A stretch of 64,000 nt of DNA from Thermoplasmata archaeon. GTDB taxonomy: Archaea > Thermoplasmatota > Thermoplasmata > Lutacidiplasmatales > UBA184. The notes beneath the pieces are model-generated. The model did not search any database. It had not been told where the DNA came from and saw nothing but the letters and a program-made list of their open reading frames with translations. The translations under genes and the position numbers were made by a program. This document shows positions 5,183 to 63,237 of the stretch, in pieces. Position 1 is the stretch's first letter. Each line of letters opens with the position of its first letter. The stretch covers positions 1 through 64,000 of the forward strand of contig JAKAVQ010000001.1 in NCBI GenBank assembly GCA_021817245.1, in the 5' to 3' direction.

Positions 5183-5300
5183 GCCGAGGTGGCTCAGTCC
5201 GGTACGGCGCGAGTCTGGAAAGCTCGTGGCGGAATACGCCTCGGGAGTTCAAACGGCGCGATCGGTCTCCCCGTCGCGCGGGAAAGTCTCCCCCTCGGCG
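5183..5300 (+). tRNA. tRNA-Ser (anticodon GGA) with a T-loop intron
   Basis: The acceptor stem GCCGAGG (5183-5189) pairs fully with CCTCGGC (5293-5299), with discriminator G5300. The anticodon arm is 5210-5226 with anticodon GGA at 5217-5219. A long class-II variable arm with paired GGCG and CGCC occupies 5227-5242. The T-stem is GGGAG (5243-5247) and CTCCC (5288-5292), but the enclosed loop is 40 nt instead of 7. Removing 5254-5286 (33 nt) leaves TTCAAAT and an 85-nt tRNA-Ser. The insert contains a GCGCGA/TCGCGC hairpin (5256-5261 with 5274-5279). CCA is not encoded. The assignment to Ser follows anticodon and variable arm. Confidence 0.9.
5254..5286 (+). other. Intron in the T-loop of tRNA-Ser (position 59/60)
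   Basis: 33 nt. Predicted fold: T-stem as outer helix, 3' bulge A5285-G5286-T5287, central helix T5248-T5249-C5250 with G5282-A5283-A5284 plus an A-G opposition (A5251/G5281), 5' bulge from A5252, then the inner GC hairpin (one G-G mismatch at its base). Cutting after the second base of each bulge yields TTCAAAT. Boundaries may slip by one or two bases within the A run. Confidence 0.8.
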
Positions 5301-55485: not shown

Positions 55486-56154
55486 CGATCGCGGCCGAGC
55501 CGGGCGGAGGTCTTAGCGTTACGGAGAGCGCTCGCGAAGCCGCACCCCCGGATCGCCGCGGTCGACGACGGCGCGTTCGACCGGGACGACCCGACGGCGC
55601 CGATCGCGGCGCTTGTGATCTCGGCGCCCGATTACGTGGAGGCGGTCCGCACGCACCGGGTCCGGGTCGACGGCCGGGACGCGACCCGGCGGGTCCTCGA
55701 GCTCCTCCGGGCGGTCGGGCCGCTCGACGGGGTGCGGGCGCTCCTCCTCGACGGCGCGGTCCTGGGGGGCTTCAACGTCGTCGACCTCGATGCGCTGCAC
55801 CGCGCCCTGGGGTTTCCCGTGGTCGCGCTGACCCGCCGGCCCCCGGACTTCGTCCGGATCCGTGCGGCGCTCCGCAAGTATTTTCCTCGCGACTCGGCCC
55901 GACGATGGCGGCTCCTCACGGCGCACCGGCTCTTCCGGGTACCCACGGAGGGCGCTCCGCTCCTCGCCGCGGCGGTGGGATGCACCCGCGCCGACGCGGC
56001 GCGCCTCGTTCGAGTGACGACGGTCCGAGGGCATTGGCCCGAGCCGCTCCGCCTCGCGCACCTGATCGCGTCCGCCGGCCGCCCGGCGCGCCGACGCCGC
56101 CGACCGAAGACTTATGCCCGGAAGCGCCCTTCTGGGGCAGGGCCTGTAGCTTAG
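55384..56154 (+). CDS. DUF99 family protein (start uncertain)
   Basis: DUF99 (PF01949) family, similar in fold to endonuclease V-like proteins but of unknown activity. Matching segments: RIAAVDDGAFDRDDP, VRALLLDGAVLGGFNVVDL, FPVVALTRRPPDFVRIRAALRKYFP. The family's N-terminus corresponds to about 55540, where no ATG, GTG or TTG occurs in frame. GTG 55384 is the nearest upstream start; it adds about 50 non-homologous residues and overlaps the divergent gene. The last 15 bases lie inside tRNA-Arg. Confidence 0.7.
   Translation: MRARKPLRRGRGGEDGADRGTARRTSHGDRRHVHRSRPSRAEVLALRRALAKPHPRIAAVDDGAFDRDDPTAPIAALVISAPDYVEAVRTHRVRVDGRDATRRVLELLRAVGPLDGVRALLLDGAVLGGFNVVDLDALHRALGFPVVALTRRPPDFVRIRAALRKYFPRDSARRWRLLTAHRLFRVPTEGAPLLAAAVGCTRADAARLVRVTTVRGHWPEPLRLAHLIASAGRPARRRRRPKTYARKRPSGAGPVA
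56109..56117 (+). promoter_or_regulatory. TATA-like box for tRNA-Arg, inside the DUF99 gene
   Basis: GACTTATGC, 23-31 bases before the tRNA 5' end at 56140. The tRNA promoter therefore lies within the DUF99 coding sequence. Confidence 0.5.
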
Positions 56155-56248
56155 CTTGGACAAAGTACTGGCCTTCTAAGCCAGCAAACTCGGGTTCAAA
56201 GGTCCCGGCGCCTCGACGGCGCCGGGGCGGAGACTCCCGACAGGCCCG
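56140..56248 (+). tRNA. tRNA-Arg (anticodon TCT) with a T-loop intron
   Basis: Acceptor GGGCCTG (56140-56146) pairs fully with CAGGCCC (56241-56247), discriminator G56248. The D-arm is GCTT/AAGT. The anticodon stem CTGGC/GCCAG encloses CTTCTAA with anticodon TCT at 56175-56177. The T-stem is TCGGG (56190-56194) and CCCGA (56236-56240), but the loop is 41 nt. Removing 56201-56234 (34 nt) leaves TTCAAAT and a 75-nt tRNA. Without recognising the insertion a standard search may miss or mis-end this gene. CCA is not encoded. Confidence 0.9.
56201..56234 (+). other. Intron in the T-loop of tRNA-Arg (position 59/60)
   Basis: 34 nt. Inner hairpin of nine perfect pairs (56204-56212 with 56218-56226, loop TCGAC), extended by T-G and G-C pairs. 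Central helix TTC (56195-56197) with GAG (56230-56232) and an A-G opposition; 3' bulge A56233-C56234-T56235; 5' bulge from A56199. Same design as the tRNA-Ser and tRNA-Ala insertions. Confidence 0.82.
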
Positions 56249-61281: not shown

Positions 61282-62334
61282 CTACTCGCCTCCCATGTGG
61301 ATCTTTCCGCGGAACTTCGCGTACACCGCGTACGACAGCTCGATGCCGTGCTCCAGGTACCACTCGACCGGGCGGCCGAACGAACGGTCGTAGCTCCGGA
61401 TCTCCTCCGTGGTTTCGAGGTCGAAAGCGTCGGATCCCGCACCGGAGCCGTACCCGACCATGAGGATCCGCTCGCCGGGGCCCGCGTGGTCGAGGACGTT
61501 CGCGAGGCCGATCAGGGCGGCGCCCGAGTAGGTGTTGCCGATGAACGGGGTCACGAGCCCATAGCGCATCTGCTCGTCGGAGAAACCGAGGATCTTGCCG
61601 GCCCGCTGCGGGAACTTCCCGTTCGGCTGGTGGAAGACGACGTGTCGGTAGTCCTTCGGGGTCGTCCCCGAGGCCTCCATGATCCCGCGGGCACACTCGG
61701 TGACGTGCCGGAAGTACGCGGGCTCCCCCGTGAAGCGGCCGCCGTGGCTCGGGTACTTCTGGCCCTCGCGACGCCAGAAGTCCGGCGTGTCGGTCGTGTA
61801 GGAGAGCGTCCGGAGCACTCGGCAGATCACTCGATCCCGGCCGATGACGAACGCCGCGCCGCCGGCGCTCGCGGAGTACTCGAGCGCGTCGCCGGGCGCC
61901 CCCTGGGAGGTGTCGGTCCCGATCGCGACGCCGTAGCGGATCATGTCGGCCCCGACGAGTCCGAGACACGTCTGGATCGCCGCGGTGCCGGCCTTGCAGG
62001 CGAACTCGAAGTCCGCCGCGGTGAGGTTCGGCGTGGCCCCGACCGCCTGGGCGACCACGGTCGCCGTCGGCTTCACGGCGTAGGGATGCGACTCCGACCC
62101 GACGTAGATCGCCCCGATCTGCTGAGGGTCGATCGCACCGCGCACGAGCGCGGTGCGGAGTGACTCGGTCGAGATCGTGATCGTGTCCTCGTCGGGGGAG
62201 GGGACGCTCTTGCGGTGGACATTCAGGCTCTGCCCCATCGCGGCCCCGTCGGACCCCCAGACCCGGCCGATCTCCTCGGGCGTGATCCGGTAGCGAGGGA
62301 CGTAGGCACCGTAGCTCACGATTCCTGCTTGCAT
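61282..62334 (-). CDS. hmgS: Hydroxymethylglutaryl-CoA synthase (archaeal)
   Basis: 350 residues. Condenses acetoacetyl-CoA with acetyl-CoA, first committed step of the mevalonate route to archaeal lipids. The catalytic triad is intact: E81 (GSESHPY), C113 (EFACKAGT) and H235 ([10 protein letters not shown]). N-terminus [14 protein letters not shown] is typical. One base separates it from the thiolase homologue and 16 from the HTH regulator, so one transcript. Confidence 0.95.
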
Positions 62335-63130: not shown

Positions 63131-63237
63131 TGGACCGGGCGAGATGCTCCGGCCCGGGGCGAGCGCTTGCCCCGGACCATTTGAACTCGCGACCTCTACC
63201 TTGCCAAGGTAGCGATCTTCCGCTGATCTACCGGCCC
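63131..63237 (-). tRNA. tRNA-Ala (anticodon GGC) with a T-loop intron
   Basis: Read on the minus strand: acceptor GGGCCGG (63237-63231) pairs with CCGGTCC, including the G3-U70 wobble that identifies tRNA-Ala. D-arm GATC/GATC, anticodon stem CTACC/GGTAG with loop TTGGCAA (anticodon GGC at 63205-63203), five-base variable region and T-stem GCGAG/CTCGC. The T-loop is 42 nt; removing 63145-63179 (35 nt) gives TTCAAAT and a 72-nt tRNA. Discriminator A at 63131. Confidence 0.9.
63145..63179 (-). other. Intron in the T-loop of tRNA-Ala (position 59/60)
   Basis: 35 nt. The cleanest of the three: an inner helix of 10-11 pairs (starting GGTCCGGGGC, ending GCCCCGGGCC, eight-base loop), central helix TTC with GAG plus an A-G opposition, 3' bulge C-A-T and 5' bulge of A residues. 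Canonical cutting after the second base in each bulge restores TTCAAAT. Confidence 0.85.

Follow-up and report, generated by a model that had tools for sequence, protein, structure and literature searches.

The window, that is, the whole 64-kb stretch of DNA analyzed here from a Lutacidiplasmatales MAG, has a GC content of 70% and carries three tRNA genes, each with a short insert in the T-loop, one of which adjoins a gene for HMG-CoA synthase. The features are the following:

5183..5300, + strand, tRNA-Ser(GGA) gene, exons 5183-5253 and 5287-5300, 12 of 12 acceptor and T-stem pairs
5254..5286, + strand, predicted T-loop intron of tRNA-Ser(GGA), 33 nt, at 59/60, coordinates set from the T-loop position
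56140..56248, + strand, tRNA-Arg(TCT) gene, exons 56140-56200 and 56235-56248
56201..56234, + strand, predicted T-loop intron of tRNA-Arg(TCT), 34 nt, at 59/60
61282..62334, - strand, HMG-CoA synthase gene adjoining tRNA-Ala(GGC)
63131..63237, - strand, tRNA-Ala(GGC) gene, exons 63237-63180 and 63144-63131, G3-U70 pair present
63145..63179, - strand, predicted T-loop intron of tRNA-Ala(GGC), 35 nt, at 59/60

The Rfam tRNA model matches the window at 5183-5300 (+), 56140-56214 (+), and 63237-63168 (-), the latter two matches stopping within the T-loop insert, and neither this model nor the intron-aware model R1 found further tRNA genes in the 64 kb. The G3-U70 pair present in tRNA-Ala(GGC) is the identity mark of tRNA-Ala. 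A dissection script, which judged the window genes by acceptor and T-stem pairing only, found all 12 pairs (G-U allowed) in each of the three genes, and excision at 59/60 yields TTCAAAT in all of them. An earlier note on this DNA had described a 40-nt T-loop in tRNA-Ser that becomes TTCAAAT on removal of 33 nt at 59/60, with tRNA-Arg and tRNA-Ala likewise interrupted at that site by inserts that, taken together, measure 33, 34, and 35 nt, and the script bears out both statements. Its description of all tRNA-Ser stems as perfect holds for the acceptor and T stems but not for the anticodon stem, which contains a U-G pair, nor for the D stem, which is short and partly mismatched. Similarly, the pattern ascribed to every tRNA gene of the window is correct there (three of three) but applies to only 15 of 48 genes genome-wide, so that the complete series is a sampling accident, with a chance of about 2.6% under random placement.

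The source MAG (2.31 Mb, 31 contigs, 92.9% complete, 4.0% contaminated) yields 44 matches to the Rfam tRNA model, all dissectable. Leu-TAG, His-GTG, Pro-GGG, and Pro-TGG came from R1, built from 11 genes of this same MAG, and from the script, for a total of 48 tRNA genes. T-loop inserts of 26-38 nt are present in 15 of them, namely Ser GGA, CGA, and GCT, Arg TCT and TCG, Ala GGC, Glu CTC, Asn GTT (two copies), Gly TCC, Gln CTG, Asp GTC, Lys TTT, Leu TAG, and His GTG, while the T-loop is uninterrupted in the other 33. Each of the 13 interrupted genes that were dissected has 12 of 12 stem pairs and gives TTCAAAT or TTCGAAT after excision. Reading by eye also located inserts elsewhere: a D-arm insert alone in four genes (Arg-GCG twice, an initiator-like Met-CAT, and Pro-TGG), a D-arm insert in addition to the T-loop intron in Lys-TTT and Leu-TAG (the six loci being L033, L035, L034, L234, L041, and L038), and an anticodon-arm insert in four genes (L021, L022, L025, and L026), for an overall 23 interrupted genes out of 48.

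Intact second copies, which the earlier note had named as evidence for decay of the interrupted genes, were searched for genome-wide, and no uninterrupted gene for any T-loop-interrupted anticodon was found in this 93% complete MAG. For this search, the anticodons of L021, L022, and L025 were read by eye, as automatic calling breaks down where a gene has an insert in the anticodon loop or a long one in the D-arm; L025 was read as Glu-TTC because its exons match those of Glu-CTC and the long variable arm is absent, and one CCG call, in L363, is probably Leu-TAG. No tRNA-Trp or tRNA-Pro(CGG) was found in the MAG with the Rfam model, R1, or the script, and these genes may be too interrupted for the models or may lie in the absent part of the MAG; the archaeal 16S model likewise had no match in this MAG. 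Some duplicate tRNA genes at contig ends may be strain variants. The two tRNA-Asn copies (L031:181-284 and L032:158-261), located near the ends of contigs C17 and C15, have exons one base apart and strongly different T-loop introns, and adjoin near-identical tRNA-Met genes; they are either paralogues or the products of two strains within the MAG.

The inserts are very probably protein-spliced archaeal introns of the bulge-helix-bulge (BHB) kind, placed in the T-loop between A59 and U60, family-wide and inherited, a reading drawn from sequence comparison. What is directly observed is their anatomy, their recurrence across genomes, their co-variation, the lack of uninterrupted copies in this MAG, and one EndA gene together with one RtcB gene. 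The anatomy was assessed on 182 distinct genes collected by a scan script that demands TTC[AG]A, a pyrimidine at position 60, T8, and T33, so that these features are the product of selection and not findings; genes such as the tRNA-Gly(TCC) of the source MAG are dropped by the script and, even if dissected, stand outside the 182. The latter gene (L037:291-393, - strand) has C33 in place of U33, plus a T-loop intron. In this set and the genes dissected in the source MAG, intron length ranges from 22 to 39 nt. In 179 of the 182 genes, U54-U55-C56 pairs with intron positions -3 to -5, and the count is 223 of 226 (225 distinct sequences) when 44 further genes are added; in the slide control, 115 and 63 genes remain paired after a shift of one base and at most 29 after larger shifts. 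This gives a central helix flanked by a 3-nt bulge at either joint, and, since EndA cuts after the second base of each bulge, the joints are fixed at 59/60. A59 is present in 182 of 182 genes, although the script did not demand it.

The fourth pair of the central helix is standard mainly where position 57 is G, since G57 faces C(-6) in 87 of 91 genes, whereas, of 135 genes with A57, 114 have G at -6, 15 have U, 5 have A, and one has C. Against the BHB reading, position 57 forms a standard pair with -6 in only 70 of the 182 genes, the opposition being mostly A-G and the central helix often consisting of three pairs, and the start of the inner stem is delayed in 12 of 182. The inner stem contains 74-97% standard pairs, depending on the group, with up to four Watson-Crick pair types at one position, and scores above all of 1000 partner shuffles in 9 of the 11 groups with at least five distinct introns, a comparison that ignores relatedness, many of the genes being orthologues rather than independent cases. 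Structure is therefore kept while sequence changes in these nine groups, although Met-CAT surpasses its best shuffle by a hair, and Leu-TAG and Leu-TAA merely equal theirs. The precursors of the three window genes fold better than shuffled sequences (z of -2.8, -4.6, and -4.5); their minimum-energy folds contain the intron stem in all three cases, whereas the T stem appears only in those of Arg and Ala, and the short central helix is left open in all three, which also counts against the BHB assignment. Taken together, the BHB, slide, and co-variation controls support the identification of the tRNA-Ser, -Arg, and -Ala inserts as T-loop introns, and their removal restores a normal tRNA in the 13 genes dissected in the source MAG.

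The enzymes expected for such introns are encoded in the MAG. Both matches to the EndA domain (PF01974) lie in one 354-aa ORF, which starts where the upstream gene ends, and the PF01974 search found no second splicing endonuclease gene or separate beta subunit in the MAG; RtcB is encoded on contig C30. The catalytic Tyr, His, and Lys are present in the 354-aa protein, their roles being assigned after PMC12397907 and general background. The alignment places no insert at the position of the CSL/ASL loop in either repeat. The type check proposed earlier thus returns one two-domain chain, which by alignment appears to be an alpha-prime EndA lacking the CSL/ASL loop: it has the two fused domains and the catalytic triad of the homodimeric enzymes, the dimer state being predicted, and is not a broad-specificity EndA of the (alpha-beta)2 type or of the epsilon2 type with CSL/ASL. 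EndA was matched in 36 of 41 genomes of relatives, the five without a match being incomplete (59-73%) members of the same genus as the source MAG. An extra EndA domain, suggested by open frames of 495-617 aa in the family, was rejected, since the gene of the source MAG is the 354-aa ORF and the remainder is open frame in GC-rich DNA.

In the proposed mechanism, the T stem would act as the outer helix of the BHB, U54-U55-C56-R57 would pair with intron positions -3 to -6 to form the central helix, A58-A59^i1 and (-2)(-1)^U60 would make up the two 3-nt bulges, and the intron stem would provide the inner helix. The two-domain EndA would cleave within both bulges and RtcB would ligate the exons, leaving UUCRAAU, and splicing would be expected to come ahead of the steps that depend on the T-loop, i.e., the formation of pseudouridine 55 and the action of RNase P and tRNase Z. 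Ca. Lutacidiplasmatales and close kin have probably inherited introns of this kind in about 6-15 tRNA genes of each genome, their structure being conserved while the sequence changes fast.

The distribution of these introns was followed with R1 in scans that used stricter filters whenever they covered more than 40 genomes. A scan of the genus at E<=0.001, which does not separate interrupted from ordinary tRNAs, was used solely to list places. Among 150 class genomes of at least 80% completeness, 87 matched R1 at E<=1e-10, with 6-13 matches in each of the 24 listed genomes of the Lutacidiplasmatales family and 1-4 in the others; these matches were not all dissected, and ordinary tRNAs reach 62-63 bits in some genomes, near the 1e-10 limit. 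No member of the family occurs among the 20 listed of the 63 unmatched genomes, which begin at the rank of same order. In the phylum (295 genomes, E<=1e-12, 13 candidates scored per genome, matches dissected in part), 51 genomes matched, specifically the same 24 family genomes with 5-12 matches and 27 others with 1-3, the counts outside the family being lower bounds and the contrast between families partly a matter of ascertainment, because R1 was made from source-MAG genes. Moreover, 13 of 23 titled genomes matched, again with partial dissection: all seven named MAGs of the family with 8-12 matches each and six others with one, of which five are a T-loop intron in Arg-TCT and one is an ordinary tRNA; the ten titled genomes without an R1 match include further Methanomethylophilaceae and Methanomassiliicoccus MAGs. 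The 24 listed family genomes and the seven named MAGs, each with many matches, agree with the earlier suggestion that the lineage rather than a single gene carries T-loop introns.

Outside the family, dissection located T-loop introns in Arg-CCG, Ala-CGC, and Lys-TTT of family f2 (same order), in Met-CAT and Leu-TAA of f25, in Arg-TCT of f5 and f8, and in Asp-GTC of one genome each of f44 and f34, the last with an insert of only 17 nt (L337:1501-1589). In f8, R1 matched 25 of 41 genomes, each of the 25 loci being Arg-TCT with an insert of 19-27 nt; identical coordinates link this family to Ca. Methanoplasma glyptotermitis and Ca. Methanomicula labiotermitis among the titled genomes, and the 19-27 nt Arg-TCT intron recurs in Ca. 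Methanoplasma, Ca. Methanomicula, and relatives (L312-L335, L346-L350). Hence, from the three scans and these dissections, lone T-loop introns are scattered over the phylum and pile up in the Lutacidiplasmatales family. Some of the interrupted isotypes are not the same from family to family, which suggests separate gains, while the recurring Arg-TCT, Lys-TTT, and Asp-GTC may go back to common descent. The HMG-CoA synthase of the window shares 90-92% identity with its counterparts in several Thermoplasmata MAGs, 87% with that of SubAcS13-64, and 83% with that of AcS5-116, the latter two being genomes of the Lutacidiplasmatales paper (PMC9287336), whose main text does not contain the word 'intron'. 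In the absence of a 16S match, this protein served to place the lineage, and the source MAG accordingly belongs, by inference, to that order or its close kin.

Within the family, the history of the introns was approached by comparing 279 pairs from different tRNAs within 13 genomes with shuffled sequences. A recent spread from tRNA to tRNA at 59/60, of the kind reported for Thermoproteales, would account for a single site common to many tRNAs, and one pair, His and Ser-CGA of the source MAG, is 0.815 identical, above every shuffled pair; nonetheless, mean identity within a genome is 0.604 against 0.594 for shuffled sequences, which makes such a spread unlikely. The introns of different tRNAs, which the earlier note had called unrelated in sequence, are about as unlike as shuffled sequence, and its proposal of an intron family moving between tRNAs finds no support as a recent event, although an ancient spreading followed by drift may have occurred. 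Orthologous introns have a mean identity of 0.643 over 1421 pairs, and the tRNA-Ala intron lies beside the same HMG-CoA synthase gene in 20 of 80 titled loci of other MAGs; introns kept by descent, with letters drifting under structural constraint, fit these data. Their retention might also be explained by the hiding of T-arm attachment sites from integrases, which PMC4090602 discusses for archaeal tRNA introns while stating that other tRNA genes remain open; here 33 of 48 genes keep an open T-loop, and this explanation is likewise unlikely.

Two further readings deny that the inserts are introns. The fold of the insert into a stem could suggest a permanent, structured extension of the T-arm that persists in the mature tRNA; tRNA architecture, however, relies on the T-loop, which a kept insert would destroy, uninterrupted relatives in other families have the plain TTCRAAT, and the exact fit of the intron 3' end to UUC, flanked on each side by a 3-nt bulge, is what the endonuclease requires and would be purposeless in a retained arm, making this reading very improbable. 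Decay of the tRNA genes, to which the poor scores from standard tRNA finders might be attributed, is hardly credible at all in view of the intact stem pairs of all 13 dissected genes, the lack of an uninterrupted copy for Asn, Asp, His, and other interrupted anticodons, and the recurrence in many genomes. The BHB introns are also distinct from permuted tRNA genes, in which the 3' part lies upstream of the 5' part, and this candidate was rejected on the normal order of the parts; recently transposed introns of the Thermoproteales type were rejected because the introns of different tRNAs lack sequence similarity. A search of viral contigs for relatives of one window protein came up empty and was uninformative.

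Introns of this kind are already known. In agreement with what the earlier note had stated for Thermoproteota, non-canonical BHB tRNA introns, 59/60 included, are described mainly from Crenarchaeota and Nanoarchaeota in PMC4090602 and PMC3218864, and the present ones resemble them in the BHB at the joints, the short length, the T-loop position, and the presence of several per genome. Unlike Crenarchaeota, with many scattered sites and two-gene EndAs, the present lineage belongs to Thermoplasmata, has a single two-domain EndA gene, and is interrupted in 15 genes at one site. It shares with the Thermoproteales carrying transposed introns (Fujishima et al. 2010, as summarized in PMC4090602) the interruption of many tRNAs of one lineage, but the introns of different tRNAs are very similar there and not here. 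The same T-loop joint, 59/60, is found in permuted tRNA genes known from Thermofilum and Cyanidioschyzon (PMC3218864), whereas here the parts are in normal order and separated by an intron of 22-39 nt. No report of T-loop introns in Thermoplasmata was found in the literature searched, which was mostly other than subscription papers; since the default search of tRNAscan-SE 2.0 covers such introns (PMC8450103), they may sit unremarked in databases. What is new is the lineage, the accumulation of introns at one non-canonical site, and the accompanying two-domain enzyme.

The enzyme resembles the alpha-prime EndAs of Archaeoglobus, Thermoplasma, and Ferroplasma, with two PF01974 domains per chain, the triad, and no CSL/ASL (PMC6379350, PMC8707768), but would have many T-loop and some D-arm introns to handle. 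In published work, homodimeric EndAs are termed narrow (PMC6379350, PMC4033280), the two-domain enzymes of Archaeoglobus and Thermoplasma are listed as such (PMC6379350), and CSL/ASL loops are linked with diverse introns (PMC12397907). Euryarchaeota with homodimeric or homotetrameric EndA are said to have few introns, at the canonical site (PMC4090602, PMC4033280, PMC6379350), with fewer than 10% of tRNA genes interrupted and the canonical site only (PMC4090602), an exception being allowed for three thermophilic euryarchaeal methanogens (PMC3218864). The substrates of homodimers are said to include bulge-helix-loop motifs as well, and minimal BHBs are cleaved by the Ferroplasma enzyme (PMC8707768), which argues against a simple narrow-enzyme reading. 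A plain two-domain EndA, lacking a broad-specificity loop, may serve a genome with nearly half of its tRNA genes interrupted because the T-arm, through the T stem and UUCRA, offers a second half, ready-made, of a near-canonical BHB; the site rather than an enzyme loop would then have let introns pile up, with A57/G(-6) as a licensed variant, an explanation that is plausible though somewhat more doubtful than not. If true, the published link between intron diversity and CSL/ASL loops would be broken, and even so-called narrow EndAs would be predicted to process the T-loop 59/60 site. With its two-domain EndA and T-loop introns in 15 of 48 tRNA genes, this soil lineage offers a natural test of the intron-EndA link, which the lone Arg(UCU) T-loop intron of Ca. 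Methanoplasma and relatives may bring within reach of enrichment cultures. Lastly, standard annotation tools miss or mis-end interrupted genes: ARAGORN, in bacterial-code mode, finds one of the three window genes, tRNA-Arg, with a false 3' end, and the Rfam tRNA model misses 4 of the 48 genes of the source MAG, two of them with T-loop introns.
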